Shown here piece by piece: positions 1,214 through 30,571 of a DNA stretch of 39,699 nt (position 1 is its first letter; each line of letters starts with the position of its first letter). Source of the stretch: a virus; IMG/VR virus record IMGVR_UViG_3300046780_000176, positions 1 through 39,699 of that record, one strand, 5' to 3'. The position numbers and the translations under genes were made by a program. The notes under the pieces are model-generated. The model searched no databases and was not told where the DNA came from. It saw nothing but the letters and a program-made list of their open reading frames with translations.

Positions 1214-1223
1214 GCTTGAACAC

Positions 1224-3968: not shown

Positions 3969-3972
3969 CCGG

Positions 3973-4001
3973 GCTCTGAGGGATCCCGGGGCGGGGTTGT
4001 G
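3973..4001 (+). promoter_or_regulatory. Start-associated motif, copy 1
   Basis: The sequence reads CTCTGAGGGATCCCGGGGCG followed by GGGTTGTG, with the GTG start of the next gene at 3999-4001 as its 3' end. It aligns without gaps to copies at 7437, 14663 and 21990 and to a minus-strand copy at 21955-21980. No good Shine-Dalgarno sequence is present, so the element may itself direct initiation or be a promoter. Its function is inferred only from conservation and position. Confidence 0.65.
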
Positions 4002-4310
4002 GACCTCCCCAAGGCCGAAGACCTCGCGGCGATCTTCAAGGCGGCCCGGGATGCCGGCGTAACGCGCCTGCGCATCGGGGCTCTCGAAGCGACCCTGGCG
4101 CCGTACAGCCAGGCCGACATCGTCGCGGCCATCAACCGCGAGAACCCGATTCCCAAGGGCCCGCCCGGCGCGCCGGCACAGGACCCGTTCGCCGCCATCC
4201 GCGGCCGGGTGAACGAGGCCACGGACGAGCGGCCTGACGTGCTCGACGCCCTGGCCAACGGGGCGCGGCTCGTGGCTCCGATCGACGGCGACCCGACCCA
4301 GCCGTCGTGA
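3999..4310 (+). CDS. Unrecognised 103-residue protein before portal
   Basis: It starts at GTG 3999, which is embedded in copy 1 of the start-associated motif. The N-terminal 45 residues (DLPKAEDLAAIFKAARDAGV...RIGALEATLAPYSQADIVAAINREN) resemble a short helix-turn-helix or helical-hairpin protein, followed by a Pro-rich linker (PIPKGPPGAPAQDP) and an acidic tail. It overlaps the next gene by 4 nt (GTGA). Unknown small genes between terminase and portal are common in podoviruses. No function can be assigned. Confidence 0.65.
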   Translation: MDLPKAEDLAAIFKAARDAGVTRLRIGALEATLAPYSQADIVAAINRENPIPKGPPGAPAQDPFAAIRGRVNEATDERPDVLDALANGARLVAPIDGDPTQPS

Positions 4311-4531
4311 TGATGACCCCACTGCTGCAGATGCGCGCTGCGCTCATCGACGAGGCGCGTGATTGCGCCGTCCGGCTGGCCCCCAACCCGCCATCCCGTC
4401 AGTGGACGGTCGACGAGAACGCCGGGACCGTCCGCGACATCATGACGGGCGAGCTGATCGTCTATCTCGACCCGCTGGCAGCGTCGCCCACGTTCAAGGC
4501 GTTCGCCGGACGGGCGTTCGTGGCGACCTGA
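4307..4531 (+). CDS. Unrecognised 74-residue protein before portal
   Basis: Three in-frame starts are adjacent (GTG 4307, ATG 4310, ATG 4313), so the N-terminus is uncertain by two residues. GTG 4307 forms a GTGA overlap with the previous stop. The product has an N-terminal helix (LLQMRAALIDEARDCAV) and a beta-like middle (QWTVDENAGTVRDIMTGELIVYLD). Its stop overlaps the portal start as TGATG at 4529-4533. No family is recognised. Confidence 0.6.
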   Translation: MMMTPLLQMRAALIDEARDCAVRLAPNPPSRQWTVDENAGTVRDIMTGELIVYLDPLAASPTFKAFAGRAFVAT

Positions 4532-6444
4532 TGGCGTTCGAGCTGCAGACCGGCCGCTGGTGGGACTGCGACGAACAATCGCTACCCACGACGCTCGCCG
4601 GCTGGGCCGCGCACCTGGAGTCGTTCGACTTCGAACGCCGCTCCCGCAATCTGCTTTATGCCCGGCTGGCGACGAACCGCGATCTTCCGAACATCTACGG
4701 GCTCGCCCTCACGCGCACGAACATGAGGGCGCTCGACTTCCGCGACTGGAAGGCGCCCGTCTTCAACGTCACCGGCTCGTCGGTCGAGACGCTCGTCAAC
4801 AAGGTGGGCCGCAACAAGCCGTGGATCTTGTTCCTCACCGACGGCGGCGACTTCTCGGCGCGCATGGCTGGCAAGAAGCGGAGCCGGTTCGTGGACGGCG
4901 TCTTTCACGAGACGAAGACCTACACGCTCACGCGCCAGATGTTCCAGGACGCGTTGACGTACGGCGACGGGTTCATCAAGGCGACCAAGAGCCTCGACGG
5001 CAAGACGATCGTCCACGACGTCGTGCTGGCCGACGAGCTGCTGATCGATCCGTGGGACTCGCTCTACTTCGGCAAGTGGCCGCGGTCGTTGATCCACCGC
5101 ACCTTCGTGTCACGCACGGAGCTGCTCTCGATCTTCGGCGACGACGACGAGGTGGCCTTCGCGATCGAGACGGCCCCGGGCTCGTTCCAAGGCCCGATGT
5201 GGGGCGGCATGACCTCGAACAGCCAGACCGCCATGGTCGGCGTGCTGGAGGCGTGGAAGCTGCCCGACGCCGACGGCACGCCAGGGCGTCACGTGCTGTG
5301 CATCTCCGATAGGGTTGCGCTGGTCGACGAGAAGTACGAATCGAAGCGCTACCCGTTCACGAAGATGTCCTGCGTCAGCGCCGGTCGCGGCTTCTGGAAC
5401 ATCGGCATCCCGGAGATCCTCGGGCCGTTTCAAGCGAACATCAACCGGACGCAGCAGGTGATCGACGAGTGCCAGCGGCGCATGTCGACCGGGCGCTGGC
5501 TGGTGCCGAATGGCTCGGGCGTCACCGATGACTCACTCGGGTCGAAGGCTGCCGGCATCATCCGCCACAACCCGAACCTCCCGCCCGCGTTCGTCGTACC
5601 GCAGGCAGTCCCGGGCGATCTGTATGCCCACCTAGACAAGACGATCGAGCGTGCGTACAAGCGCGTCGGCATCTCCGAGCTCGCGGCGCAGGCGATGAAG
5701 CCCGCCGGCCTGAACAGCGGCGAGGCGCTGCGGGCGTTCGAGTCGGCCGAGAGTGAGCGTTACGTGACGCTGGGGATGCAACTCGAGGAAGCCGTGCTCG
5801 ACCTCGCGGAGCTTGATCTCGAGCTGGCCGTCGATATCAAGCCGACGGTGCGGGCGCCGCGCGCGGGCGGCATCGACGTCATCGACTGGAAAGAGCTGGC
5901 GTCGATCAAGGGCAACAAGTCGATCATGAAGGCGTTCCCGATCTCGTCGCTGCCGACGTCGCCGGCGGGTCGGCTCCAGCGCGCGGCCGAGATGTTCCAG
6001 GTCGGGCAGATCTCGAAAGAGGACTACCTGCGCATCATCGACTACCCCGACACGCAGGCCGTGATCGAGTTGGTCACCGCCGGGCGCGACTCGATCGACT
6101 GGATGCTCGACAAGATCGTCGAAGACGGAATCTTCGAGAGCCCCGAGCCCTACCAGAACCTCGACATCAACAAGCCGGGCAACGCGATCGAGGTCGCGCA
6201 GAACCGGTACCTGCGCGAGCGGACGCAGGGCTGCCCCGAAGAGCGGCTGGAACTGCTGCGCCGGTTCATGCAAGTGGCGAAGGACCTCGACCAGAAGAAC
6301 AAGACGCAGCAGACCGCCGCGCCCGCGATGAACGGGCTGCAGGCCGCCGCCGCGGGCCTCCCGCCGCCTACCGCGGCCCCGCCTCCCGTGATTCAACCCG
6401 GCGGCCCGATGGCCGGCAACAGCACGATGCCCATCGCGGCATGA
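4531..6444 (+). CDS. Portal protein
   Basis: A 637-residue protein expected to form the ring at the capsid vertex through which DNA is packaged and released. Its C-terminal half carries a portal-like helical signature (ISELAAQAMKPAGLNSGEAL, then RAFESAESERYVTLGMQLEE at about residues 385-425), after a beta-rich clip/wing region. The size suits a podovirus portal, and it follows terminase and precedes the scaffold and capsid genes. Start ATG 4531 is chosen because it overlaps the previous stop; the frame is open further upstream (to 4363) but without a plausible coupling. The C-terminus is Pro/Ala-rich. The exact portal subfamily is not determined. Confidence 0.88.
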   Translation: MAFELQTGRWWDCDEQSLPTTLAGWAAHLESFDFERRSRNLLYARLATNRDLPNIYGLALTRTNMRALDFRDWKAPVFNVTGSSVETLVNKVGRNKPWILFLTDGGDFSARMAGKKRSRFVDGVFHETKTYTLTRQMFQDALTYGDGFIKATKSLDGKTIVHDVVLADELLIDPWDSLYFGKWPRSLIHRTFVSRTELLSIFGDDDEVAFAIETAPGSFQGPMWGGMTSNSQTAMVGVLEAWKLPDADGTPGRHVLCISDRVALVDEKYESKRYPFTKMSCVSAGRGFWNIGIPEILGPFQANINRTQQVIDECQRRMSTGRWLVPNGSGVTDDSLGSKAAGIIRHNPNLPPAFVVPQAVPGDLYAHLDKTIERAYKRVGISELAAQAMKPAGLNSGEALRAFESAESERYVTLGMQLEEAVLDLAELDLELAVDIKPTVRAPRAGGIDVIDWKELASIKGNKSIMKAFPISSLPTSPAGRLQRAAEMFQVGQISKEDYLRIIDYPDTQAVIELVTAGRDSIDWMLDKIVEDGIFESPEPYQNLDINKPGNAIEVAQNRYLRERTQGCPEERLELLRRFMQVAKDLDQKNKTQQTAAPAMNGLQAAAAGLPPPTAAPPPVIQPGGPMAGNSTMPIAA

Positions 6445-6460
6445 CGAAAGAGGGGACACG

Positions 6461-6793
6461 ATGACACCATCGATCGGAAGAATCGTTCACTACTGCCTGA
6501 CCGAACAGAACGCCGCCGAGATCATGCGGCGCCGCACGACCGGGCCAGACATCGCTGCGCGCATCCCGTCGAAAGAATGGCCCGTCGGCGCGCAAGCGCA
6601 CATCGGCAACGCGGTCGGCCCTGGCGACGTCTTCCCGATGGTGATCGTTCGCGTCTGGCCGAGCGACACGGGATTGGTCAACGGCCGCGTGTTGCTCGAT
6701 GGGACCGATGAATTCTGGGCGACCAGCGTGAGCCAGGTCGTTCCCGAGTCGACGGACAAACTGGGCTGCTGGTTCGAGCCGCCGCGCGTTTGA
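6461..6793 (+). CDS. Conserved small phage protein beginning GRIVHY
   Basis: A 110-residue product starting MTPSIGRIVHYCLTEQNAAE, with a purine-rich Shine-Dalgarno (AAAGAGGGG) upstream. Small phage proteins that open with a GRIVHY-like strand and continue with a compact beta fold (here MVIVRVWPSD, RVLLDGTDEFW) are frequently found among head or unknown genes. The role is not known to me. It lies between portal and scaffold in what appears to be one transcription unit. Confidence 0.75.
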   Translation: MTPSIGRIVHYCLTEQNAAEIMRRRTTGPDIAARIPSKEWPVGAQAHIGNAVGPGDVFPMVIVRVWPSDTGLVNGRVLLDGTDEFWATSVSQVVPESTDKLGCWFEPPRV

Positions 6794-6805
6794 AAGGAGC
6801 ATCCG

Positions 6806-7048
6806 ATGACCGACGAACTGAAGAGCCGAGTGATCAAGGCGCTGCGCATCGGCCAGCGCGAGGCCCGCGCGAACACAGACCGCGAGGAATGCGGCGAGCT
6901 GGTCATGCTGCTGGACGCCTGCCCGGTCGACGCGCCGGCGCCCGCTGTCGAGCCGCCCTCCGCGCTGCGCGAAGCGGTCCAGGAAGAAGCGAAGGTGGCC
7001 GAGGTCGCCGCCTACGACCGGGCGAACGCGACGCCCGTCGAGGAATAA
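6806..7048 (+). CDS. Unrecognised acidic 80-residue protein
   Basis: It starts at ATG 6806 behind a GAAAGGAG Shine-Dalgarno. The first half is a charged helix (ELKSRVIKALRIGQREARAN), with one Cys pair separated by long spacing (ECGELVM...DACPVD). The second half is acidic and Ala/Val/Pro-rich. It ends four bases before the next gene. No domain is recognised. Confidence 0.65.
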   Translation: MTDELKSRVIKALRIGQREARANTDREECGELVMLLDACPVDAPAPAVEPPSALREAVQEEAKVAEVAAYDRANATPVEE

Positions 7049-7052
7049 CGCC

Positions 7053-7253
7053 GTGCCGCTGCTCATCAAGCCGGAAATCTACGCGAAGGCGTACAAGAAC
7101 GGCGTGCGCTTGCGCGGCATCGACGGGCCGCTCGACAAGAACCTCCGGGTCATGGACGAGGCCGATCCGTACTTCCTCGCGCTCGGCAGCGCCGACTACG
7201 TGATCGGGTTCTCGGACGGCTGGCACGGCATCGCGCCATTGGCGGTGGAGTGA
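7053..7253 (+). CDS. Unrecognised 66-residue protein
   Basis: The GTG start at 7053 follows the preceding stop by 4 nt. The sequence (IKPEIYAKAYKNGVRLRGID, then YFLALGSADYVIGFSDGWHG) looks like a compact alpha/beta domain. The stop overlaps the next ATG (GTGATG at 7250-7255). The function is unknown; the position between portal and scaffold suggests a minor head or maturation protein. Confidence 0.6.
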   Translation: MPLLIKPEIYAKAYKNGVRLRGIDGPLDKNLRVMDEADPYFLALGSADYVIGFSDGWHGIAPLAVE

Positions 7254-7414
7254 TGCCGCTGATCCCCGGTTCTGGCCAGGGCACGATCTCGGCGAACATC
7301 GGCACCGAGATCAACGCCGGGCGCAAGCCAGCGCAGGCCGCAGCGATCGCCTACCGGAAGGCCGGCAAGTACCGCGCGAAACGCCCCCGGTTGAAAGAGT
7401 ACGTAGGGACGTAA
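7253..7414 (+). CDS. Very small basic protein with a KP-QA-AIA-KAGK signature
   Basis: This 53-residue frame runs from ATG 7253 to TAA 7412-7414. It reads MPLIPGSGQGTISANIGTEI, then NAGRKPAQAAAIAYRKAGKY and a basic tail. The G-(R/K)-KP-x-QA-x-AIA-x-x-KAGK pattern is one I associate with tiny conserved phage proteins located near portal, scaffold or capsid genes. It may bind DNA or a structural partner because it is strongly basic. The overlap with the previous stop and the family-like motif support it as a real gene despite its size. Confidence 0.7.
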   Translation: MPLIPGSGQGTISANIGTEINAGRKPAQAAAIAYRKAGKYRAKRPRLKEYVGT

Positions 7415-7436
7415 GCCCGGCCACGCCGCCCCGTGG

Positions 7437-7464
7437 TTCTGAGGGGAAACGGGGCGAGGTTGTG
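7437..7464 (+). promoter_or_regulatory. Start-associated motif, copy 2
   Basis: The sequence reads TTCTGAGGGGAAACGGGGCG followed by AGGTTGTG, with the GTG start of the scaffold gene at 7462-7464. It lies in a 47-bp gap after the preceding stop. It matches copy 1 at the same phase relative to the start codon, differing mainly in the three or four central bases. Confidence 0.65.
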
Positions 7465-8547
7465 GGAGACCAAGCAGGCGAGACGGCGACCGACAGCGGC
7501 GCCGGTGGCGATGTAGGCGGAGCGGCAGCCGAACCGGCCGCGCCCGTGACGGACCCGGCGGTCACCGAGGACGGTGGCGCCGCGCCGGCCGTTCCGGCAG
7601 CCGACGACATCCCCGCCGATCCGACCGCGAAGCCGAAGGCCGCCAAGGCCAAGCCCGCCGAGCCGCCGCCCGCCGCCGCCAAGAAAGAGCCTAACCTCAC
7701 GGCCCGTCTGGCGAGCCTGTCCCGCGACAACCGGGAGACCCGCGCCGCCCTGAAGGCGGCCGAGGACAAGGCGACCGCCGCCGCCCAGCGCGTCACCGAC
7801 TTCGAAGCCGTCCTGGCGCTCGGCAAGGACGACGCGACGATCCCGGCCCTGCTCGAACGTCTGGGCATTCCCTTCGAGAAGGTGGTCAACGCCTACGCCG
7901 GGCAACCGGAACAGACCGCCGAGCAATTGCGCGACGCCAAGCTCGCCGCGCTCGAGAAGAAGCTCAACGACGATGCGGCCGCGCGCCAGGCTGAGGCCGA
8001 CAAGGCGAAGGTCGAGGCGGACGCGTCGCGCGAAGCATCCGCGCGCGCCGAGTACGTCGGCATGTGCGGCAAGGCCATCACGGCCAACGCCGGGAAGTAC
8101 GAAATCTGCGCCCGCCTGGGCGACGAGGCCGCGAACGACGTGTTCGGGCTCGTGATCAAGGCGTGGGGCGACGCCGGCAAACCGCAGCTGATGCCGGGCG
8201 AACTCGAAGAGGCGATCGAGAAGGCCGTCGAGGTGCAGGAATTGAAGTACGAGGAACGCGGAAAGCAGCTCGCGAAGCAGGGCGCCAAGCCGAACGGCGC
8301 CGCCGCAGCCACCGCGAAAGATTCTGATCTGCCGCCGCATTTGACGGGCGGAAAACTGAGCGACAAGGACGACGACATCCTGAGCGGGCTCATCGACAAG
8401 ACGGCCCCCGCGACCAGCTCTCAACGAGCGAAGCCGCGGACGATCAACAGCTCGTTGGGAGGCTCGGCACCGCCGCGCCAACCAGCACGGGGATCGATGG
8501 ATCCGCGCGACGCACTGAGGGAAGTGCTCGCGCCTTTCCAGCGCTGA
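7462..8547 (+). CDS. Head scaffolding protein
   Basis: A 361-residue protein located directly before the major capsid gene, with scaffold-type composition. It has a long low-complexity Ala/Pro/Gly/Glu N-terminus (residues 1-75), then coiled-coil-like helices (ARLASLSRDNRETRAALKAA; LAALEKKLNDDAAARQAEAD), and a short conserved-looking C-terminus (PRDALREVLAPFQR) that would be the capsid-binding end. Scaffolds direct prohead assembly and are removed before DNA entry. The GTG start lies at the end of start-associated motif copy 2. The family cannot be named by sequence alone; the call rests on position and composition. Confidence 0.8.
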   Translation: MGDQAGETATDSGAGGDVGGAAAEPAAPVTDPAVTEDGGAAPAVPAADDIPADPTAKPKAAKAKPAEPPPAAAKKEPNLTARLASLSRDNRETRAALKAAEDKATAAAQRVTDFEAVLALGKDDATIPALLERLGIPFEKVVNAYAGQPEQTAEQLRDAKLAALEKKLNDDAAARQAEADKAKVEADASREASARAEYVGMCGKAITANAGKYEICARLGDEAANDVFGLVIKAWGDAGKPQLMPGELEEAIEKAVEVQELKYEERGKQLAKQGAKPNGAAAATAKDSDLPPHLTGGKLSDKDDDILSGLIDKTAPATSSQRAKPRTINSSLGGSAPPRQPARGSMDPRDALREVLAPFQR

Positions 8548-8575
8548 CCGCCCCGCAACCGTCTAGTCGCCCCTC

Positions 8576-8584
8576 AAAGGAGGT
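8576..8584 (+). promoter_or_regulatory. Perfect Shine-Dalgarno of the capsid gene
   Basis: AAAGGAGGT lies 6-7 nt before the capsid ATG at 8591 and is fully complementary to the anti-Shine-Dalgarno end of 16S rRNA. It is the strongest site seen in the structural module, fitting the need for high capsid protein output. Confidence 0.8.
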
Positions 8585-8590
8585 CCGCCA

Positions 8591-9826
8591 ATGATCGCGG
8601 ACATCGTTGCCAACGTCGAACCGATTTACAAGCAGTGGTACGCCAGCTCGTACGAGAACATGTTCTACCGCGACCGCCCCGCGATGGGGATGATCGCCAA
8701 GGAACGTGCCGGCGGCGAGCAGGTCAAGCAGCCGATCAAGATCAGCCAGGGCCCCGGGCAGTCCGCCACCTTCACCAACGCGCTCGGCAACGTCGGACTC
8801 TCCGTCCGTCGCCCGTTCCTCGGTGATTGGGGCCTCGATTACTCGCTGGCCCAGGTCCAGAACACCCTGATCGAGTTGTCGCAGGACAACAAGGGCGCCG
8901 TCGTCAAGGCGCTCGCGGACGAAACCGAAAGCGCCGTCGATGCTCTCGCTCAGCGCTTCGAGCACGACCTATTCCGGTCGGGCTACGGCGATCTAGGCGT
9001 GGTTCTGTCCGGCCAGGCGACCCCGACGATCACGCTGACGCTGCGGTCGGACGCCCAGAACTTCTTCCCGGGTCAGGTCGTGGTTGCGGCACCGGCCGTG
9101 AACACGGGCGTCCTGCTCAACGCGGGAGCGAGCATCGTCGTGTCGTCCGTCGATCGCGACGCCGGCACGGTGACGAGCGCCGGCAACTGGACGGCTTCGA
9201 TCGCGGGTCTGATCGCGACGAGCGTTCTGTTCCAGCAGGGCGATCGCACTTCGGCCGCGACCCCGACGCCCCTCAAGGTGGTCGGGTTCGCGGGCTGGCT
9301 GCCGCTCGTGGCGCCGGTGGGTGGCGATTCCTTCTTCGGAGTCGATCGCTCGTTGGATCCGGTGTCGCTGGCCGGCGTTCGCGTGTCCGGTCTCGGCAAG
9401 CCCATCAGCCAGGCGATCTACGACCTGGCGGTCCGCATCGGCGAGAACGGCGGGGCCCCTGACGCCTGCTTCATCTCGTTCGACGCGTTCGGGAAGCTGG
9501 CGACGGAGCTCGACAACCGCGCCATCTACGACAACATCCAGGGCGCCGGCATCACGATCTCCTACGAGGCGATCACGGTGGCAGGGCCGAAGGGACGCAT
9601 TCGTGTGTTCCCGTCGACCTTCTGCCCAATGGACCGCCTGTTCGTGATCACGAAGCGCGACTGGACGATCTACTGCGGCGGCGGGGCGAACCCGATGTTT
9701 CCGTCGCTCAAGGGCGTTTCGCTGCTCGACGTGAGCAGCGCGGACGCGGTCCAGGTGCGCCACAAGACGCTCGCGCAGCTGATGTGCGCGGCGCCGGGTC
9801 ACTCGGGAGTCTCGCAGCTCAGCTAG
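8591..9826 (+). CDS. Major capsid protein, HK97-like
   Basis: A 411-residue protein following the scaffold. Its N-terminus (MIADIVANVEPIYKQWYASSYENMFY) and body pattern resemble podovirus-type HK97-fold capsid proteins: a long spine-helix region around VVKALADETESAVDALAQRFEHDLF (about residues 96-120), beta-rich insertions (120-240), and an A-domain-like C-terminal part with IRVFPSTFCPMDRLFVITKRDW near residue 345. It ends VRHKTLAQLMCAAPGHSGVSQLS. The capsid assignment follows from size, strong Shine-Dalgarno and order (portal, scaffold, capsid); the fold is inferred. Confidence 0.87.
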   Translation: MIADIVANVEPIYKQWYASSYENMFYRDRPAMGMIAKERAGGEQVKQPIKISQGPGQSATFTNALGNVGLSVRRPFLGDWGLDYSLAQVQNTLIELSQDNKGAVVKALADETESAVDALAQRFEHDLFRSGYGDLGVVLSGQATPTITLTLRSDAQNFFPGQVVVAAPAVNTGVLLNAGASIVVSSVDRDAGTVTSAGNWTASIAGLIATSVLFQQGDRTSAATPTPLKVVGFAGWLPLVAPVGGDSFFGVDRSLDPVSLAGVRVSGLGKPISQAIYDLAVRIGENGGAPDACFISFDAFGKLATELDNRAIYDNIQGAGITISYEAITVAGPKGRIRVFPSTFCPMDRLFVITKRDWTIYCGGGANPMFPSLKGVSLLDVSSADAVQVRHKTLAQLMCAAPGHSGVSQLS

Positions 9827-9835
9827 TCGGACTGT

Positions 9836-9868
9836 CGCCGGGCGCGTAGCGGTAACGCGCGCTCGGCG
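9836..9868 (+). terminator. Stem-loop after the capsid gene
   Basis: CGCCG (9836-9840) pairs with CGGCG (9864-9868), and inside it GCGCGT (9842-9847) pairs with ACGCGC (9855-9860) around a 7-nt loop. No U-run follows, so it is either an attenuating terminator or a structure protecting the 3' end of capsid mRNA. It fills most of the 65-bp gap before the next gene. Confidence 0.5.
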
Positions 9869-9891
9869 GCGTCCAGCAAAGGACACGCACC

Positions 9892-10305
9892 ATGGCAAAT
9901 CCGAAGCTGTTTTACGAGGATGGGATCAACTACACGAAGGGCGCCACCCTCGCGCTCAACGTTCCGATCGGCGCGGCGGGTGCCCCTGGCACGCCCACGC
10001 TGTTCAACAACTTCAAAACCCCCCTCTCGGCGACCATCCCGCTCAACAGGACCGGCGCCGGCCTCTACACGCTCTCCCTCCAGGAGACGTGGGCCAACCT
10101 GATCTGGTACTCGATCTTCACCACGCAGGCGACGGTGGCGGCGGGTGACGGATTGACCGGTCTCGTGACCTCGACGGCGAACCTCGCTGTCAACGGCCAG
10201 CTGACCTTCACCATGCTCAACAACGCCAGCGTCGCGGCCGATCCGCGCAGCGGCGCCATTCTCCAGGTGCTCTTGGGCCTGAAGAACAACAGCAACTTCC
10301 CGTAG
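9892..10305 (+). CDS. Putative minor structural protein (beta-rich)
   Basis: A 137-residue protein starting at ATG 9892, preceded by GCAAAGGAC as a modest ribosome site. It is rich in Thr, Asn, Ala and Leu with alternating hydrophobic patterns (GATLALNVPIGAAGA; LSATIPLNRTGAGLYTLSLQ; GQLTFTMLNNAS), typical of a beta-sandwich virion protein such as a head decoration or head fibre. Position immediately after the capsid protein supports this. No family is identified. Confidence 0.65.
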   Translation: MANPKLFYEDGINYTKGATLALNVPIGAAGAPGTPTLFNNFKTPLSATIPLNRTGAGLYTLSLQETWANLIWYSIFTTQATVAAGDGLTGLVTSTANLAVNGQLTFTMLNNASVAADPRSGAILQVLLGLKNNSNFP

Positions 10306-10309
10306 GCCC

Positions 10310-10564
10310 ATGATGGACCCCAAGCGAAAGCCCCTGTCCGTGATGATCGCCCTGCAGGCGGACAAGCTGCGGGGCAAAGACGGGATGAAGCACGACGAGC
10401 CCGACGACTCCAGCGAGGAAGACGCGCCGGAAGAGTACGGCAAAGAGGAAGGCGTCTCCGCCTGCCAGGACATGATCGACGCGATGAAGAATCGCGACGC
10501 ATCCGCGCTCAACGAGGCGATGGCGCGCTGGTGCGAGATCTACGGGCACGGGGAAAAGGAATAG
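10310..10564 (+). CDS. Unrecognised acidic 84-residue protein
   Basis: It begins MMDPKRKPLSVMIALQADKL, with a second Met available at 10313. Residues 28-50 are very acidic (DEPDDSSEEDAPEEYGKEEG), and the C-terminal half is a short helical segment (ALNEAMARWCEIYGHGEKE). It follows the previous gene by 4 nt. The function is unknown; small acidic proteins next to capsid genes sometimes aid assembly, but nothing here proves it. Confidence 0.65.
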   Translation: MMDPKRKPLSVMIALQADKLRGKDGMKHDEPDDSSEEDAPEEYGKEEGVSACQDMIDAMKNRDASALNEAMARWCEIYGHGEKE

Positions 10565-10572
10565 GAAAGGTT

Positions 10573-10628
10573 CCGGGCCGCGGGGGCAGAGGAATCGGTC
10601 CCCACCAACACCCACTCTCGCGGCCCGG
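10573..10628 (+). promoter_or_regulatory. Long-range inverted repeat before the adaptor gene
   Basis: A perfect 10-bp inverted repeat, CCGGGCCGCG at 10573-10582 and CGCGGCCCGG at 10619-10628, encloses a 36-nt loop that holds a nested GGGG/CCCC pair. It occupies the 74-bp gap between the head genes and the adaptor, ending 10 nt before ATG 10639. It could be a terminator-antiterminator type structure, an RNA-processing site, or a fold that limits access to the adaptor start. No U-tract is present. Confidence 0.6.
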
Positions 10629-10638
10629 TTAGTTCTTC

Positions 10639-11301
10639 ATGGCGCAAACACTCGCCACCCTCCGAACGGAGTCGCAGCAGCGCTGCAATCAGGAGAACAG
10701 GACCCTGGTCGGCACGCCAGAGTGGAACCGCTACATCAACGAGGCGATCGGCGAGCTCTACGACCTCGTCACCAGCTCGTACCCGCACTACTACCTCAGC
10801 TCGTTTCCCTTCACGCTCGCGGGGTCGAACCAGCAGAGCATCTCGGCGCTTACGCCGCTGTTCTACAAGCTGCGCGGCCTCGACTACCTGTTCGCCGGCA
10901 ACGCGAAGCCGATGAGCGTCCACCCGCTCAGCTTCCTCGAGCGGAACAAGTACGGGAACCTCAACTTCGCCGGCAACTACACGCTTTGGTACAATCCACA
11001 GCCGCCGACGCTGGTCGCCGACGGAGACACGCTCGATTTCATCCTCGACGTGTGGTCGGAGTTCATCCCGGTAACGGCCGCGATCGCCGGCGCGATGAAG
11101 GAAGAATCCCCGACGGACGATCTCCTGGCGCGCAAGGCGCAGATCATCGCGCGCATCAACGCCGCGGCGCCGAACCGCGACGGCGAGCCGGGGCAGGCCG
11201 CCGACCTGACGTCGTGGGCGCCGGGCGACAGCGGCCGCAGGTACATGCTCGAAGGCGGGAACCTGATTATCGTCGGCTCTGACGATGGGGACTGGGCGTG
11301 A
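10639..11301 (+). CDS. Head-tail adaptor (connector) protein
   Basis: A 220-residue protein. The N-terminal helices (LATLRTESQQRCNQENRTLV, GTPEWNRYINEAIGELYDLV) resemble the adaptor ring subunits that podoviruses place under the portal (P22 gp4-type or T7 gp11-type role). The second half is a mixed region with VWSEFIPVTAAIAGAMKEES and KAQIIARINAAAPNRD, a helical segment common in such connectors. It sits between the capsid block and the nozzle gene and overlaps the latter by 4 nt (GTGA). The exact family is not assigned. Confidence 0.75.
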   Translation: MAQTLATLRTESQQRCNQENRTLVGTPEWNRYINEAIGELYDLVTSSYPHYYLSSFPFTLAGSNQQSISALTPLFYKLRGLDYLFAGNAKPMSVHPLSFLERNKYGNLNFAGNYTLWYNPQPPTLVADGDTLDFILDVWSEFIPVTAAIAGAMKEESPTDDLLARKAQIIARINAAAPNRDGEPGQAADLTSWAPGDSGRRYMLEGGNLIIVGSDDGDWA

Positions 11302-14222
11302 GCGCCGGCCTGCCGCGCGTCCCGCATCCGCTTCTGATCAGGGGCGTGAACCAGAAGTCACCCCGGCAGATCGGCGTGGAGGGGGAGCTTGACCTCCTCC
11401 AGAACATGCAGATCGTCAAGGCGTCCAGCGGAGACGTCGGTTTCGAGCTGATCCCCCGCAACGGGTCGGCCAACTTGCCCAGAACCGCCGATGTGGGTAG
11501 CATTATCACTGGCATGAGGCTGGGGACCCTCGGTAGCGGGCTGGTGTTGCTGACGGGTCTGTCTTGCTACCGCAAGGCCATCGACCAGTGGCATCGGGTG
11601 TCGGCGACGGCCCCGACAGTCGGCGTCGACACGAAGGCCATCACGGCGGACACGCTGCGGGCCACGGCCTGCGATCAGGTCTACGCCAACGGCTACACCG
11701 TGGCGGCCACGACGTCGCTCGACGCGACAGGCGGGAACTTCTCCGTTCACGCAACGGTGCGCGATTCGAACGGCAACAAGGTCATCGACTCGAACCTCGA
11801 GACGGGCGTCGTCGGCCCGGTAAAGCTCGTCGTCGTCACCGGTAACGTCGTGCTCGCCTTCTGGGTGGCGAGCCCGGGGACGATTCGGGCAGCGAAGTTC
11901 AACACGGGGGCGCCCTCGGCCTTCAGTGCCCCGGTCAATGTCGTGGTTGCATCGACGGCGACGCCGTTCGACGTCCAGGTCGTACCGGCATCGGGGAATA
12001 TAGCGGTCATCTACGTCACCGGCGGCGGTGCGGTCGCGCAACTTCTGTTCACGCCGGGAACGATGACGTCCGGCGCCGCGACGACGTACGGCTTCGCGGT
12101 GCCCGACGTGTTCCTGTACATGACGAACGACTACGCGACGAACACGATCTACTTGGCCCACATCGACAGCGTGAATGGCGTGCGTGAGACGACGTTCGAC
12201 GGGACGACACTGGTGCTTGGCGCGACGACCGTGTTCGATGCCGCCTCGACGCAGGCGACGAACGTGGCGGGCAAGCGTGCTGCGGCGGCGCGGGCCATCT
12301 ACTTCACCGTGGGAACGGGCCCCGTCTACGATCATCAGATCAAGGTGACGACGGGCGCGGCGGCGACGACCGTGATGCGCTCGGTCGAGCTGGCTTCGCG
12401 CGTGCTGGTGGCAAACGGGACCCTGTACGCGCTCGCGAAATACCGCGGCACGAATCAGGGAACCTACTACCTGTTGGATCTGCTGGCGAAGGTATCCATC
12501 GGCGAGGCGCTGCCTGACGTGGCGTTCATCGGCGCCACGTCCCTTCCGAACTTGGCGGTCGCGGCCACCAGCAACACGTGGCTGACGTCCGGTCTCAAGA
12601 ACCTGTCCGTGACGACGCAGAACGGCGCCTTCCTCGCGTACGTGGGCTCGTCGAGCATCTCGTTCACGTTTCAGGACTCGACCGTGGGCAAGCCGGTCGA
12701 GTTGAACAGCGGCCTCCATATCCCTGGCGCGCAGCCCTACTATTACGACGGCTCGACACTGACAGAGCACGGGTTCCCGATCGTCCCCGAGCAGTCGGAT
12801 GCGCCGGTTCCGGCGGCCGGCGGGAGCATGACGCCCGCCTCCGTCTACACCTACCGCTACGTCTACGAGTGGGTGGACGCGGTGGGTAACCTCTGGCGCT
12901 CGGCACCGTCTATCGTGCCGCAGTCGGTGAGCCTGGGGGCGACCGACACCAGGGTGACGTTGTCCCTGCCGACGCTGCGGGTGACCAGGAAGACGAACGT
13001 CTCGATCGCCGTCTACCGCACGCTCGCGAATGGGGACGGGACCGTGTATTTCAAGGTCAGCACCGCCACGGCGCCCGTGATCAACGATCCGACGATCGAC
13101 CGAATGGCCTTCGTCGATACGGTGTCCGACGTGATCGCTGCCAGCGGGGAGCCGATCTACACGACGGGTAGCGTGCTCGAAAACATTGCGATTCCGCCCT
13201 GCCGGACGATGTCCGTTCACCGCGGTCGCCTACTCGTCGCCGCCGTGGCCGGCGATGTCGATGCGGTGTGGTTTTCGAAAGACGTGGTGCCCGGTTTCGC
13301 CGTGGAGTTCTCGGACTTCCTCGTCAGCCGGATCACGAGCGTCGAGCCGATCACGGCGGTGGGCTCGCGCGACAGCTACGCGATCGCCTGCACCGCCACG
13401 CAGTCGTGGTCATCGGCGAATGAGTATCCCGACGACACCGGCGCGGGCGGCGTGCTCATCTTCCAGCAGCAGAGCAATACGACCGGCTGCGCGACGATCG
13501 GCATGATGGCCGGGAACGACCAGGGCGCGATCACCTACGCCGGCACGAAGGGCATCTGGCGGATGTCGCGTGGGCTGTCCTGGGATTACGTGGGCGCGGC
13601 GGTCGACGACGACATCGTGGGATTCAATCCCGTCGCGATCCTGTCGGTGCCTGGACAAAACCAGATGCGCGTCGTGGGCGGCGGTGCGTCGGCGCTGGTC
13701 TATGAAGCGCTGTGGGGGCAGTGGGCGAAGTGGAGCTACACGCAGGCGCCGGCCGCGTTCGTCGATGCCGTGATGTGGAACGGATCGGTAGCCTATCTGT
13801 GCAGCAACGGCACCGTGGTCGTCGAGGATACGACCACGTTCGACGACAATGGCGTCTCAGCTTCGGTCGCGCACGTCGTGACCTTCTCGGACGTGAATCT
13901 GTATGGCGTGGCGGGCTTCGGGCGGCTCTACATCACGCAGCTCACGGGGCGCGTCGTGGGCGACGGGAACGGCTTCACGCTGACGGCCGCGCAGAACTTC
14001 GACGGTACCGCGGGCCCGAGCAAGGCGCTCGCCATGGGCGCCAACGCGGCCCTCAACTTCGAGGTCGACCCGGGGACGTTCGGGAAGTCGTCGAGTTACG
14101 CGCTGACGATCTCGGACAGCGGCAACGGACCGAACAGCGCGTTCACGATCGCCGCGATCACGGCCCTCATCGGGATGAAGAAGGGTCTCAACAAGCTCCC
14201 GCCCGCTCGCCGGGCTACCTGA
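11298..14222 (+). CDS. Tail nozzle / packaged-DNA stabilisation protein (gp10-like)
   Basis: A 974-residue beta-rich protein starting at GTG 11298 in a GTGA overlap. The N-terminus (PHPLLIRGVNQKSPRQIG) names a protein that counts on correct ring docking, as in P22 gp10-like and T7 gp12-like nozzles. Residues about 630-790 carry propeller-like blades: VHRGRLLVAAVAGDVDAVWF, then SKDVVPGFAVEFSDF, ITAVGSRDSYAIACT, TGCATIGMMAGNDQGAITYA and GTKGIWRMSRGLSWDYVG. Such proteins plug the portal channel below the adaptor. No transmembrane or signal segment is seen. The length is greater than P22 gp10, suggesting extra surface domains in the first 600 residues. Confidence 0.78.
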   Translation: MSAGLPRVPHPLLIRGVNQKSPRQIGVEGELDLLQNMQIVKASSGDVGFELIPRNGSANLPRTADVGSIITGMRLGTLGSGLVLLTGLSCYRKAIDQWHRVSATAPTVGVDTKAITADTLRATACDQVYANGYTVAATTSLDATGGNFSVHATVRDSNGNKVIDSNLETGVVGPVKLVVVTGNVVLAFWVASPGTIRAAKFNTGAPSAFSAPVNVVVASTATPFDVQVVPASGNIAVIYVTGGGAVAQLLFTPGTMTSGAATTYGFAVPDVFLYMTNDYATNTIYLAHIDSVNGVRETTFDGTTLVLGATTVFDAASTQATNVAGKRAAAARAIYFTVGTGPVYDHQIKVTTGAAATTVMRSVELASRVLVANGTLYALAKYRGTNQGTYYLLDLLAKVSIGEALPDVAFIGATSLPNLAVAATSNTWLTSGLKNLSVTTQNGAFLAYVGSSSISFTFQDSTVGKPVELNSGLHIPGAQPYYYDGSTLTEHGFPIVPEQSDAPVPAAGGSMTPASVYTYRYVYEWVDAVGNLWRSAPSIVPQSVSLGATDTRVTLSLPTLRVTRKTNVSIAVYRTLANGDGTVYFKVSTATAPVINDPTIDRMAFVDTVSDVIAASGEPIYTTGSVLENIAIPPCRTMSVHRGRLLVAAVAGDVDAVWFSKDVVPGFAVEFSDFLVSRITSVEPITAVGSRDSYAIACTATQSWSSANEYPDDTGAGGVLIFQQQSNTTGCATIGMMAGNDQGAITYAGTKGIWRMSRGLSWDYVGAAVDDDIVGFNPVAILSVPGQNQMRVVGGGASALVYEALWGQWAKWSYTQAPAAFVDAVMWNGSVAYLCSNGTVVVEDTTTFDDNGVSASVAHVVTFSDVNLYGVAGFGRLYITQLTGRVVGDGNGFTLTAAQNFDGTAGPSKALAMGANAALNFEVDPGTFGKSSSYALTISDSGNGPNSAFTIAAITALIGMKKGLNKLPPARRAT

Positions 14223-14271
14223 GCAAACTTTCAGTCTTGCGTCATTTTCGCTCGGGACGCACGCTTGTGGC

Positions 14272-14655
14272 ATGCGACACGTCCTCCTGATCGGGTTGCT
14301 GCTGGGTGGCTGCGCGATGTCGGCGCCGCCGTACACGGGAACGACGATGGCGGAGGCGCGCTGGGCGGGCGTGCTCGAACGCTGCCAGGCCTACGAGGCG
14401 AGCGGAGAGCGCGACGAGGCGACGATCATGCAGTGCCGCGCGAACGCCGAACAGGCCGCGGCGGAGGACGCCTCCGAGCGCGAGGCACTCCAAGGCGCGC
14501 GGCAGTATCAGGAGGACGCCGCCGCGCGCGACCGGCGCCGGAATGCCGCCGCAGCGTTCGCATCCAGCTATCCGCGCCCCGTGGCGCCCGTTCCGACCGC
14601 GACGAGCTGCACCAGCACGGCCATCGGCACGACCGTTTACACGAACTGCCACTGA
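14272..14655 (+). CDS. Small lipoprotein inside the virion gene block
   Basis: A 127-residue protein with a short lipoprotein signal: MRHVLLIGLLLGGC, in which LGGC is a lipobox with Cys14 as the lipidated residue. The middle is a charged Ala/Glu/Arg helix and the C-terminus is TSCTSTAIGTTVYTNC, a two-Cys ending seen in small envelope proteins. A membrane-anchored product does not fit the virion, so superinfection exclusion or receptor masking is a reasonable guess by analogy with phage-encoded lipoproteins. The 49-bp gap before it is AT-richer than its surroundings and may hold a promoter. Confidence 0.7.
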   Translation: MRHVLLIGLLLGGCAMSAPPYTGTTMAEARWAGVLERCQAYEASGERDEATIMQCRANAEQAAAEDASEREALQGARQYQEDAAARDRRRNAAAAFASSYPRPVAPVPTATSCTSTAIGTTVYTNCH

Positions 14656-14662
14656 CGCGCCG

Positions 14663-14691
14663 GTTCTGAGGGATTTCGGGGCGCGGTTGTG
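14663..14691 (+). promoter_or_regulatory. Start-associated motif, copy 3
   Basis: The sequence reads GTTCTGAGGGATTTCGGGGC followed by GCGGTTGTG, with the GTG start of the S74 gene at 14689-14691. Together with copies 1 and 2 it defines the consensus CTGAGGG, four variable bases, CGGGGCG, one variable base, GTTGTG (counting one overlapping variable position), with constant spacing to the start codon. Confidence 0.65.
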
Positions 14692-16353
14692 GCAGCGTCG
14701 GATCAGAGCCTCGACCCGTCGAAATGGGCATCCGATGCCGGCGGTTGGCTGAGCGGAACCGCTGGCCCGGCCCTCGCATCGGCAGCCAAGGACGTCTGGG
14801 GGGCGATCAAGCCGCCGTCGACTGGGAACATCGACCAGGCGGTTGCCGACTCCCGCGCCCTCGAAGGCCAATTCATCTCCCAGATGGGCCAGCAGCAGGC
14901 CACGCCGGGCGTGTCATATGGTGGATCGGCGCCGGTGGTTGCCGCGCCGAGCTCGGCCCCAGGCGCCGCCCCGATCGCCGGGCCGCCGGCAACGCCCGGC
15001 CAGCCCGCGGCGGTGATGCAGCAGCCGGGTATGACGGCGCCGGTCACGATGCAGGCCCAGCCGCAGCAGGGACAGCCGACCGCGACGCAGTTCGCCGCCG
15101 CCCAGCCCGTCCAGGGTCAGCAGCCGGCCGGCATGGCACCGCTGGCCGGCAGGGTCACGGATAAAGGCGGCCCCGGCGGCACCCCGCAGCCGCCGGCTCA
15201 ACTTCCCCCGGGCATTCCCCCGGGCAGTACGCCGAATGCCGATGGCACCTACACGGCGCCGGTTGGCCAGATGGCGCCGGAAGCGCGTTCTGGGATCGGG
15301 CATTTCAATCCCGCTCCCGATCCGAACTACAACGGCGTCGTGTCTGGCGGCACCTATTCCCCCGTTGGCAATTACCCGGCCGCGCCGCCCGACGCCGACC
15401 GCATGCCCACCGGCCCGGCTCCCGCGACCGCCCCCGGCATGATGGCCGCGTCGATGCAGGCCGCCCAACTCAACACGGCGCCGCAAGACCAGTTCCGCCA
15501 GCAGCAGATGGACCTCGCTGGCTCGCTCCAGGATACGATCGCCGGCCGCAACACCTCGGTGGCCCAACTTCAGCAACAGCAGGCCTTCGCGCAGCAACAG
15601 GCGCAGCAGATGGGCCTCGCCGCCGCGATGGGACGGGGCGGGAACGCCGCGCTCGCCATGCGGACCGCCGCCGGCAACATGGGCCAACTCGGGGCGCAGC
15701 AGGCCGCCGCATCGGCCCTCCAGCGCGCGCAGGAGACGGCGATGGCGCAGAACCAGCTTGGCGCCGTGTCCGGGCAGGGCCGCGCCGCCGACATCGGCAT
15801 CGCCGGGCAGAACGCCGCGAACATCCAGCAGGGCAACCAAGTCAACGCGGCGAACCTCCAGGCCGCCAACGCCGCTAACCAGCAGTCCCAGATCGGGACG
15901 CGCGGCCAGAACATCCAGGAGCAGTCGAACCGCGCCAATCAGGTCCTACAGGCCAACCAGAATCAGGGCACCGCGGCGGCGGGGCAGTTCAACGCCAAGA
16001 CGTCGAGCGCCCAGCAGTACGGCGGCCTGCTCAGCGCAGGGGCGGGCGCGGTCTCCTCGCTGCTGTCCGACGAGCGAGCGAAGACCGATATCACGACCGC
16101 GCCGTCGGGCGACTTCCAGGAGTTTTTGCGCAAGCTGCGCCCCAGCGGCTACCGATACATCGGGCTAGAGAGCCCGGAGACCGGCGTCATGGCCCAAGAC
16201 GTCGAGCGCAGCCGCATCGGCCGCACGCTGGTGCGCGAGACGCCATCGGGCGCCAAGGCCATCGACGTCCCGCGCGCGACCGGAACCATCCTGGCAGTGC
16301 TGGCGGACATGCACCGTCGCGTGACCGCGGTGGAAGGCCGCAAGGCGGCGTGA
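14689..16353 (+). CDS. Ala/Gln-rich virion protein ending in an S74 intramolecular chaperone
   Basis: A 554-residue protein. Residues 60-260 are Pro/Gly/Gln low complexity; 270-450 are Ala/Gln/Asn-rich helices (LQQQQAFAQQQAQQMGLA; QNAANIQQGNQVNAANLQAA). Residues about 460-554 match the Peptidase_S74 chaperone: SDERAKTDI at Ser460, LRPSGYRYIG, TGVMAQDVE and the terminal helix ADMHRRVTAVEGRKAA. In endosialidase-type fibres this domain trimerises the protein and cuts itself off at the Ser of the SDxR motif, so removal of about 95 residues is predicted. The domain is usually on fibres, whereas this gene sits with ejection proteins. GTG 14689 lies in motif copy 3. Confidence 0.82.
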   Translation: MAASDQSLDPSKWASDAGGWLSGTAGPALASAAKDVWGAIKPPSTGNIDQAVADSRALEGQFISQMGQQQATPGVSYGGSAPVVAAPSSAPGAAPIAGPPATPGQPAAVMQQPGMTAPVTMQAQPQQGQPTATQFAAAQPVQGQQPAGMAPLAGRVTDKGGPGGTPQPPAQLPPGIPPGSTPNADGTYTAPVGQMAPEARSGIGHFNPAPDPNYNGVVSGGTYSPVGNYPAAPPDADRMPTGPAPATAPGMMAASMQAAQLNTAPQDQFRQQQMDLAGSLQDTIAGRNTSVAQLQQQQAFAQQQAQQMGLAAAMGRGGNAALAMRTAAGNMGQLGAQQAAASALQRAQETAMAQNQLGAVSGQGRAADIGIAGQNAANIQQGNQVNAANLQAANAANQQSQIGTRGQNIQEQSNRANQVLQANQNQGTAAAGQFNAKTSSAQQYGGLLSAGAGAVSSLLSDERAKTDITTAPSGDFQEFLRKLRPSGYRYIGLESPETGVMAQDVERSRIGRTLVRETPSGAKAIDVPRATGTILAVLADMHRRVTAVEGRKAA

Positions 16354-18413
16354 GCGCGGCGGCGTACGATCCGGACGAACTGAAGCGCCCGCAGTTCGAA
16401 AACCCGGCTCTCGCAGCGCCCGCGCTGACGTCGGTCGAGCGGCCGTACAACGAGCCGGCCTTGGCCCTGGCGCCCGAGCAGCGTGGCGGTCCGGCGCCGA
16501 CGGACGCGCTCGCCCTCCAGCAGCCGGACCCGGCCGACGAGCCCACGGGCGTCGATGCCATCTCGGGCGGCAGCCTGACCCCTCCCGACGCCGCGCGCCC
16601 GCCGCCCCCGGGCGGACAACTCGACACGGACCAGCTCATGACGGCCGCGTCCGTCCCGCCGCCCGCTGGAGGCGACGCCGTCGACCAGACGATCGCCGCG
16701 GCCCAAGCCGCCAACGCCCCGCCCGCGCCCCCCGCCAAGCCTCCGACCATCCAGGAGCAGGAGCAGGCCGGGCTCGCCGAGCAGGACAAGCTCGCCAGCG
16801 ATGCCGAGAAGGCCGAGCGGGCAGCCGGCGCCGCGCGCGCGAAGCAGGCCGAGGCCTCCCAGATCGAAGCGCAGCAGAAGGCGCAGATCCAGGCCGAGAA
16901 CGCCAAGCGCGAACAGGCCATCGTCGATCAGGCCAACGCCCGCACTCAACAGTGGATGGACCGCAGCACCGCCGAGAATGACAAGTTTATGCGGATGGGG
17001 CTCCACGACTACTGGGACGACAAGTCCGTCGGGAACAAGATCCTCGCCGGCCTGGCCATGGTCTTCGGGGCGGCAGGGGGGCGGTCGCTCGCCGACAACC
17101 CCGGCTACCAGATGATCAACACGGCGATCGAGCGCGACTTCCGGACGCAGCAGGCGAACATCGCCAAGCAGAAAGAGAACGTCAACCTCGCCAAGCAGGG
17201 CGTTGAAGACGCGTTGAATCAGAAGCAGCAGCAGCTCGCCGACAACAACCTCAAGAAGGCCGCCGCGTACGACGCCGTCGCCGCGCAGGCCGTCGCGCTC
17301 AAGCTGAAACAGGGCGTCCCGCTCGAGCAGGCATCGACCGATGCCGCCGTGGTCGGGCTCCGTCAGAAGGCCAACGCCACCCGAATGGAGACGCTCAAGG
17401 CGGTCCACGGGCAGAACGTCGAGGACGCGCAGCTGGCGGACCAAGACGAGCGGCTCAAGATCGAGCACGAGAGAACCGGGTTCGAAGGACAGCGGGTCGG
17501 GATCGAGCGCGATCGGCTCGCGAACGACAAGCTGCGCGCCGAAGCGGCGATGGTTTCGGCGCAAGCCCATGCGAAAGGGAAGTCCGGCAAGGGTGGCGGC
17601 GGGGGCGGTGGAAGCTCGCTCGACGCGGCGGCTGTGCAGCTGCGGAAAGAGATCCAGGACGCCGCTGACGCCGGCAAGCCGATGACCGGCGATCAGATCC
17701 TCGCGCGCGGCGTGCAACTGAAGATCCCGGCCGAAGCGAAGGCGGGCCACGTATCGATCAAGTCGATCAACACGGCCATCGCGCAAGAGGGCGGCATCAA
17801 GGCGAAGAACGCCAAGCTCGACACGGGCCAGGTCACCGAATGGGCGAGGGAGAACAAGATCCCCGACCTGATCAAGAAGCAGGACGAGCTTTCCGCCGTG
17901 CTCGAAGAGGTCAACAACGCCAAGCACAACCCGCTGCAGCAGGCGCTCGCGATCGAGAAGGCTGTCTCGTCGGCGCGCGGCGGCGCGGCCTCGAGGCAGG
18001 CGCTCGACCTGGCGCTTCACCATCTCGGCGGGCGCTGGGATTCGATCGAGGCGCTGATCCAGGGCGCGAAAGACGGTGAAGTTGGCGAAGCGCAGATGAA
18101 GAACTTCGTCGGCTTCATGCGCAACCAACTCGGCACCGCGCAGGGCGAGGGGAAGAAGAAGTACGACGACTTCAACAAGTTCATCGCATCGCAGCCGGCG
18201 GAGAAGCGCTCGGCGCTCGAAGCCCAGCGCGGGCGCGTGTTCTCGGGCGTGCACGGGTTCGGAGAGTCGGCGCCGTCGAAGGGCGGCGGCGCGCTGCCCG
18301 GCGGCATGAAGATCGTCAAGGTCCGCGACACGCAGACTGGGGCCATCATCGAGGCGATCAAGCGCCCCGATGGGTCGCTCGTGAACAAGCAGACCGGCGC
18401 CGCGCTGCAGTGA
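16350..18413 (+). CDS. Putative DNA-ejection (internal virion) protein
   Basis: A 687-residue protein starting at GTG 16350 in a GTGA overlap. The first 150 residues are Pro/Ala-rich; 150-220 form a coiled coil (EQAGLAEQDKLASDAEKAER). A conserved-looking core follows: HDYWDDKSVGNKILAGLAMV, then FGAAGGRSLADNPGYQMINT and AIERDFRTQQANIAKQKEN at about residues 222-275. The short Gly/Ala-rich hydrophobic stretch could insert in membranes. A Gly-run linker (KGGGGGGGSS) separates the C-terminal helices. Long helical proteins placed after the tail nozzle genes are typically the ejectosome proteins that escape the capsid and bridge the envelope. Family not named; role inferred. Confidence 0.68.
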   Translation: MSAAAYDPDELKRPQFENPALAAPALTSVERPYNEPALALAPEQRGGPAPTDALALQQPDPADEPTGVDAISGGSLTPPDAARPPPPGGQLDTDQLMTAASVPPPAGGDAVDQTIAAAQAANAPPAPPAKPPTIQEQEQAGLAEQDKLASDAEKAERAAGAARAKQAEASQIEAQQKAQIQAENAKREQAIVDQANARTQQWMDRSTAENDKFMRMGLHDYWDDKSVGNKILAGLAMVFGAAGGRSLADNPGYQMINTAIERDFRTQQANIAKQKENVNLAKQGVEDALNQKQQQLADNNLKKAAAYDAVAAQAVALKLKQGVPLEQASTDAAVVGLRQKANATRMETLKAVHGQNVEDAQLADQDERLKIEHERTGFEGQRVGIERDRLANDKLRAEAAMVSAQAHAKGKSGKGGGGGGGSSLDAAAVQLRKEIQDAADAGKPMTGDQILARGVQLKIPAEAKAGHVSIKSINTAIAQEGGIKAKNAKLDTGQVTEWARENKIPDLIKKQDELSAVLEEVNNAKHNPLQQALAIEKAVSSARGGAASRQALDLALHHLGGRWDSIEALIQGAKDGEVGEAQMKNFVGFMRNQLGTAQGEGKKKYDDFNKFIASQPAEKRSALEAQRGRVFSGVHGFGESAPSKGGGALPGGMKIVKVRDTQTGAIIEAIKRPDGSLVNKQTGAALQ

Positions 18414-21106: not shown

Positions 21107-21955
21107 GTCGCCGTCCGCGGTCGCGCCGGTCTGCGACTGGAACATCGTCGCCGTCTTCCCAGTCGCGCGCGACGGCGCCGGTCCCTGCTTCGTCTCGTCT
21201 TGCTTCCCGAAGCTGGCCTGGAGATCGGACTGAAGCGCGGGGGACATCGTGTCCGTCCCATACACGAGCTGCACTTCGCGCTCTTTCCTATATGGCAGCT
21301 TCCAGGACTTCTTTTTGGCCAGGGCGTCCGCCATCGCGAGGCCGAGGGCTGCTTTCGTCCCGTCATAGAGCTTGGGGTAGAGGGCCTGGAAGTGCTGGAT
21401 CTGGTCACCGACGAGGATCCCCTGCTCCATGTCCCGCATGACGACCATGGGGTCGTTGGCGACGTCGAAGGCCCGGCGAAAGTTGGCGATCTCGGTGTCG
21501 CTGGGGTCGAAGTTCGTGGTCTGCGCGGTCGTCTCCACGGTGCTGACAGGGAGGATCTTCTGCAGATAGGGGATCGCCACCTGGACGAGCGCCAGGTAGG
21601 AGGCGGCGAGGTCGTGGTCTTCGGGCCGGAAGGCGGCCGAGATGTCCTCGAGCAGCTGCGGCTTGAGGGACGGCGGGGCGGCCGGATCGTCTGACGGGCC
21701 GATCGCCTCGGTGATGTGGTCGAGCGCCCACCCGTAATCGAACTTCGCCATCTTGTCGACCTTGCGGGGGCCGTCGTCCTCGGCAACGAAGCGCGTCAGC
21801 GACCGCCTGATCTCCCGCGGGAGCATTTCGGCGCGGTCCTTGTCCCCCATCGTGATGCGGCCCGGCTTGCCCGCCAGGATCTCGCGGATGCCGGTCACGG
21901 CCAGGAGGGCTTCGGCGGACACCGGCGGGGCTGCCTGGGGCGGTTCGATAGCCAT
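21095..21955 (-). CDS. Inverted virion-type protein of unknown function
   Basis: A 286-residue product reading opposite to every other structural gene. ATG 21955 is preferred; a TTG at 21958 adds one residue. The C-terminal half (DVANDPMVVMRDMEQGILVG, then HFQALYPKLYDGTKAALGLA, SWKLPYRKEREVQLVYGTD, ALQSDLQASF) resembles a helical domain I associate with the ends of large phage internal-virion proteins, which would place it functionally beside the two ejection proteins just upstream. It has its own start-associated motif at 21955-21980. The stop overlaps the convergent gene's 3' end. Frame support is strong because the amino-acid pattern is protein-like and the competing plus-strand frames are not. 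Confidence 0.8.
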   Translation of the reverse strand: MAIEPPQAAPPVSAEALLAVTGIREILAGKPGRITMGDKDRAEMLPREIRRSLTRFVAEDDGPRKVDKMAKFDYGWALDHITEAIGPSDDPAAPPSLKPQLLEDISAAFRPEDHDLAASYLALVQVAIPYLQKILPVSTVETTAQTTNFDPSDTEIANFRRAFDVANDPMVVMRDMEQGILVGDQIQHFQALYPKLYDGTKAALGLAMADALAKKKSWKLPYRKEREVQLVYGTDTMSPALQSDLQASFGKQDETKQGPAPSRATGKTATMFQSQTGATADGDLRK

Positions 21956-22011: not shown

Positions 22012-22025
22012 GTCAGAGCCAGTCC

Positions 22026-22041: not shown

Positions 22042-22066
22042 CTAGCCCGAGCAAAGGGGCGCCACG

Positions 22067-28745: not shown

Positions 28746-28746
28746 C

Positions 28747-30569: not shown

Positions 30570-30571
30570 TG

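Follow-up and report, generated by a model that had tools for sequence, protein, structure and literature searches.

How are the virion genes of a soil phage switched on and translated when most of the genes that open its late blocks have no recognisable Shine-Dalgarno (SD) sequence and start at the end of a repeated element? The question is raised by a 39,699-nucleotide stretch of viral DNA (IMG/VR record IMGVR_UViG_3300046780_000176; the window), in which a sequence-only reading had noticed three copies of such an element and had proposed either a promoter giving leaderless mRNAs or a translation-control site. A longer record (G001; IMGVR_UViG_3300049448_000145, 53,681 bp) includes the window, at 99.9–100% identity over the shared part tested. 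A 94-bp overlap between the ends of G001 indicates that the genome is circular and 53,587 bp long, and an encoded tyrosine integrase (PF00589) indicates that the phage is probably temperate. The genome also encodes a P-loop (AAA_24) protein and has a cluster of DNA-binding proteins upstream of terminase. Searches with the MCP, portal, 974-aa and TerL proteins identified no named phage relatives, no near DNA match to a named phage was found, and a search of genome contigs returned no prophage or host. The early region contains a hexanucleotide repeat array of GGTACG, GGGACG and GGTCCG units (window ~37234–37507; G001 14017–14290).

The pattern TCTGAGGG-N4-CGGGGCG-N-GGTTG has three exact matches in the window, at 3975–3999, 7438–7462 and 14665–14689 (1–2 nt from the coordinates first given), where shuffled sequences are expected to yield 0. 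The phase relative to the start codon is constant, as originally claimed, with the final G of the pattern being the G of the GTG in all three. Allowing up to 3 mismatches reveals two further copies, at 21956–21980 (−) and 21991–22015 (+), which are arranged divergently, back to back with 10 bp between them, and serve opposite strands (Table 1). Copy 4 ends in GGTTG-ATG, and this ATG (21955) is the start of an inverted 286-aa gene (21955–21095, −). Copy 5 lies 51 nt upstream of the ATG at 22067, giving a predicted leader of ~50 nt and a start-codon offset of 71, a value that recurs in one of the relatives described below (G007). The five copies score 33–40 bits against at most ~10 bits in shuffles, and the complete 53,587-bp circular genome has no sixth copy above the shuffled background. 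A 14/14 match to the two central heptamers occurs at ~21663 (+), antisense within the 286-aa gene, without the flanks. All five copies are in the virion module, are intergenic or at gene starts, and are directed into a gene. The probability that a random site falls within 100 nt upstream of a same-strand gene is 8%, so that five out of five corresponds to p ~3e-6.

Table 1 Features of the late region and of its relatives. Positions in the window unless another record is named.
Feature	Record	Position	Strand	Sequence or content
Motif copy 1	window	3975..4002	+	TCTGAGGGATCCCGGGGCGGGGTTGTGG; exact match; GTG at 3999, 103-aa gene, portal block
Motif copy 2	window	7438..7465	+	TCTGAGGGGAAACGGGGCGAGGTTGTGG; exact match; GTG at 7462, scaffold-like gene
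Motif copy 3	window	14665..14692	+	TCTGAGGGATTTCGGGGCGCGGTTGTGG; exact match; GTG at 14689, 554-aa ejection/S74-type gene
Motif copy 4	window	21953..21980	-	TCAGAGGGGAAGCGGGGCGGGGTTGATG; 1 mismatch in the 25-nt pattern
Motif copy 5	window	21991..22018	+	TCTGAGGGATTGCCGGGCGTGGTCAGAG; 3 mismatches
Shine-Dalgarno-like AAAGGGG	window	22053..22059	+	read from the sequence
Transcription block 1 (predicted)	window	3999..7414	+	103-aa gene, portal, small genes (ORF calling)
Transcription block 2 (predicted)	window	7462..14655	+	scaffold-like protein, major head protein (8591-9826), adaptor, tail proteins
Transcription block 3 (predicted)	window	14689..21106	+	three large ejection-type proteins (554, 687, 897 aa)
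Transcription block 4 (predicted)	window	21095..21955	-	inverted 286-aa gene; converges with block 3
First gene of block 5	window	22067..22435	+	122 aa; rightward from the divergent pair
Lineage motif	G002			GTGCAGGGTA-N-CCACCYTGGC then GTG
Lineage motif	G005/G006			GTGCAGGGTA-N-CGCATTGGC then GTG
Lineage motif	G004			GGGTAC-N-CGCTTTRGYGA
Lineage motif	G003			GGTACG-N-CGCC
Lineage motif	G007			CCGGGCACAAATCCCGG
Nested tRNA-Met(CAU)-like	G002 (IMGVR_UViG_3300048872_000029)	18364-18434		
Nested tRNA-Met(CAU)-like	G003 (3300049926_000051)	24150-24221		
Nested tRNA-Met(CAU)-like	G006 (3300012971_000007)	6451-6521		also in G005

The copies divide the module into predicted transcription blocks, so that each late block is preceded by a repeated directional site whose orientation follows transcription, as would be expected of a phage-specific late promoter. 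The earlier assignment of the block openings holds for the scaffold gene and for the S74/ejection genes, the 554-aa product matching PHROG ejection and tail-fibre families. It does not hold for portal (4531; phrog_332), which is the third gene of its block; copy 1 is directly followed by the 103-aa gene (3999–4310). The reported lack of SD sites is borne out: none of at least 4 nt is found ahead of the four G001 genes that start at the motif (SD length 0), and 49 of the 82 other called G001 genes have one. The gene at 22067 is the only motif-driven gene of the window with an SD sequence and also the only one with a leader. Leader and SD thus appear together, suggesting that the motif without a leader replaces both.

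Six further IMG/VR records (G002–G007) encode major head proteins that are 85–88% identical; G005 and G006 represent one lineage, giving five related lineages. The sequence-only reading had named absence of the motif upstream of orthologous genes in relatives as an outcome that would count against it. Taken literally, this outcome is observed, because the window's motif sequence is absent from all six records, but in its place each of the five lineages has a different repeated motif of its own at orthologous gene starts (Table 1), including those of the 103-aa, scaffold and ejection genes and the surroundings of the 286-aa gene. A lineage-specific motif is present in all relatives at the places of copies 1 and 2, and two short fragments also bear the G007 motif. 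This suggests that the function has been conserved while the recognition sequence has diverged. All lineages have in common a core, GGG or similar to GGT(A/G)C, that lies ~20 nt ahead of the start codon, together with a second block adjoining the start. Motif seeds were picked by inspection and the related genomes are not fully independent; two-site matrices found further, previously unused sites in G004, G006 and G007 that score 17–36 bits versus 9–15 in shuffles. The G003 motif is weaker and looser, with one site scoring under the shuffled maximum and one, adjoining its divergent partner, recognised by eye. The distant viral matches L045, L059 and L060 (~30% identity, AT-rich) contain no comparable motif.

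Three sets of observations separate a promoter from a translation signal. In G001, G003 and G004 the 286-aa gene lies in inverted orientation, and its start there bears a motif of its own that points with the gene and is one half of a divergent pair; in G006 and G007, where the gene is co-oriented with its neighbours, it has no motif. A site that accompanies a gene through inversion behaves like a promoter. The second set concerns spacing. The GGG-to-start-codon offset is 19–24 nt in 22 of the 27 sites, and 27 or 29 in two. The three sites left have offsets of 32, 71 and 71, and it is these that have an SD sequence outside the motif (4, 7 and 7 matching bases). At the remaining sites an SD match is seen only at two G004 sites, through a GAGG within the motif.

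The strongest competing explanation is a translation-control site, in which a phage protein or the ribosome binds an mRNA element ahead of the start codon and so replaces the SD sequence in a polycistronic late mRNA. The fixed start-codon phase, the missing SD at four of the five copies and the tight 19–24-nt offset at most sites would all be accounted for. However, genes that start 32–71 nt from the motif have an SD of their own, meaning that at those genes the motif does not work at the start codon, and inverted genes gain not just a motif but also a divergent partner. SD-like pairing of GAGGG is not conserved in relatives, leaving no anti-SD pairing common to the lineages, and RNA structure is likewise not supported: no stable or shared fold was detected (fold z −1.1 to +0.7), and the dyads that might form a hairpin in G002 (CAGGGT/ACCCTG) and G007 (CCGGG/CCCGG) are not common to the other lineages and fold at shuffle level. 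The third set of observations comprises this lack of supported structure together with a slight variation in start-codon position and a purine common at the putative transcription start, both of which are more readily explained by a fixed point of transcription initiation than by a fixed ribosome site. We therefore consider translation control unlikely and, of the two alternatives originally left open, the promoter clearly better supported by the divergent pair, the inversion-following motifs and the SD sequences that accompany displaced motifs.

A translation-control role has reportedly been proposed for the start-associated sequences (SAS) of cluster K mycobacteriophages, to which the motif had been compared. 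The likeness is that of short asymmetric repeats locked to the start codons of a subset of genes. SAS are 13-bp repeats of unknown role (PMC3203893), and the extended ESAS consensus varies by subcluster and is now read as containing SigA-like promoters (PMC11373665). SAS have an SD core (AGGAG), lie at the ribosome-binding position and occur in 11–19 copies, whereas the element described here measures ~28 bp, lacks an SD, runs right up to the start codon and is present in 5 copies in the virion module only. The sequences differ, as had been stated: SAS (GGGATAGGAGCCC), which lies upstream of starts in cluster K, has two matches with 2 mismatches here, neither at a motif, which is at chance level.

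A second alternative is that the copies are stoperator-like repressor sites silencing the late genes in the lysogen, with the differences between lineages reflecting immunity groups. Cluster A stoperators are directional and diverge with their repressor. They are short sites involved in transcription regulation (PMC3203893), and the integrase of this probably temperate phage is compatible with such a role. Yet stoperators are distributed genome-wide including early regions, whereas the motif is confined to the virion module, and the complete genome has no copy close to its early or regulatory genes, at which a repressor would have to act; nor would fixed spacing to the start codon be expected. 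The stoperator consensus (GGTGGMTGTCAAG) gives two window matches with 2 mismatches, a number equalled or exceeded in 39 of 100 shuffles, and we judge this explanation very improbable. Least likely of all is an RNA-processing site at which a nuclease would cut a long late transcript to give near-leaderless ends, which would suit the sense orientation at block boundaries and 5′ ends matching start codons, but minus-strand copy 4 has no known leftward gene or transcript upstream to be cut, no structure is present and the sequence differs between lineages.

The most probable reading, which we favour with reasonable confidence from the arrangement of the sites, is that the motif is a compact phage-specific late promoter yielding leaderless or near-leaderless virion mRNAs. 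Each copy would be a promoter of ~28 bp spanning about −24 to +4, and transcription would begin at the first base of the start codon or 0–3 nt away from it. Virion mRNAs would then have little or no leader, and an SD site would not be needed. We infer that a phage factor reads the motif: host RNA polymerase would be redirected by a phage-encoded specificity factor, the divergence of which between lineages would have given each phage its own version of the motif. A GC-rich promoter without an AT-rich −10 element is unusual, which counts against the promoter reading.

The known promoter consensus sequences that were searched for do not account for the sites. No sigma-70 promoter (TTGACA, 16–18 nt, TATAAT) occurs in window positions 1–20000, and the window contains neither a sigma-54 promoter (TGGCAC-N5-TTGCW, −24/−12; up to 1 mismatch) nor the T7 promoter consensus TAATACGACTCACTATAG (up to 3 mismatches). 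The single-subunit RNA polymerase family PF00940 has no match in six records, although it matched no control genome either, and there is no unassigned ORF of T7 RNA polymerase size outside the virion module.

One candidate for the specificity factor is a small helix-turn-helix (HTH) protein encoded upstream of terminase (G001 27322–28128). It is conserved in each of the four relatives whose records include this region (27–41% identity). Its family matches are weak (HTH_23, E=0.0056; Sigma70_ECF, E=0.031), its AlphaFold model is poor (pLDDT 62), and Foldseek found no significant match to the model. G002 and G006 have in common both a helix of this protein (VGQGRVYRLLAKI) and the GTGCAGGGTA half-site, and G001 differs in both; such co-variation of helix and half-site is suggestive, in a comparison of five sequences that is confounded by kinship. 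The product of the adjoining gene (G001 26678–27322, outside the window) combines an XRE-type HTH at its N terminus with a sigma-70 region 4 at its C terminus (PF04545, E=9e-13), with no match to region 2. We rejected this protein as the factor: among the six records searched it is at the locus only in G001, with a sub-threshold match elsewhere in G003, and so it cannot account for the motifs of the other lineages.

The predicted promoters resemble the late promoters of phages with single-subunit (T7, N4) or giant-phage (phiKZ, AR9) RNA polymerases in being compact, nearly contiguous, just upstream of the start point, lineage-specific and present at each late block. They differ in being GC-rich and in that no RNA polymerase gene was found as far as searched. 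In AR9 the late promoter is AACA-6N-TA/G, the last base being the transcription start (PMC5312081), and leaders are 26–491 nt, compared with the 0–3 nt predicted here. The place of the candidate HTH protein upstream of terminase is similar to that of the staphylococcal Ltr/RinA proteins, small phage proteins encoded there that switch on the late module (PMC13123087). Ltr acts through repeats (−107 to −42) upstream of a TATA-containing promoter to give one long transcript (PMC13123087), whereas in the present phage it is the repeated site that directly adjoins the start codon, and each block has one.

Several tRNA-like sequences were noted in these genomes. In G002, G003 and G005/G006 the first ~200 nt of the scaffold ORF contain, just past the motif start, a tRNA-Met(CAU)-like sequence in the sense direction (Table 1). 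Across its 19 pairs 98% of cells pair, and 5 of the 19 change on both sides (slid controls, none); it has a 1:72 mismatch, as in initiator tRNAs, and scores below the Rfam tRNA gathering score. It is possibly a phage initiator-like tRNA or a tRNA-like mRNA element. G007 (IMGVR_UViG_3300025898_000036) has an intergenic tRNA-Met(CAU) at 4905–4978, just upstream of its first late motif (5123), that folds far better than shuffles (z −3.5). G004 (IMGVR_UViG_3300047409_000754) contains an array of 28 predicted tRNA genes (27201–31129), a further tRNA-Met-like anticodon arm at 28978 (−), and a tRNA-like gene (42393–42514, +) that ends in CCA, has a 32-nt insertion in the anticodon arm, is antisense to late genes and adjoins a motif. 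In the window, ARAGORN predicts a 93-nt tRNA-Ala(TGC) at 7268–7360 (−), mostly antisense to a short ORF (7253–7414), which has imperfect stems and is probably spurious. The occurrence of tRNA-Met, partly initiator-like, in the same module of several relatives may support the predicted leaderless translation.

Taken over six phage lineages, 27 late control sites can be described, many of them at orthologous genes. Because the sites differ between phages with capsid proteins that are 85–88% identical, co-variation offers a way to look for the protein that recognises them. We suggest, tentatively, that these phages could represent an undescribed temperate soil group with a new kind of specificity factor that redirects host RNA polymerase to short GC-rich promoters without −35 and −10 elements, a start point on the initiation codon and an entire virion programme that is leaderless. 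If the start points are confirmed, this would be a late switch that operates without classical promoter boxes or SD sites, and the motif would predict the operon structure of otherwise unannotated soil phages.
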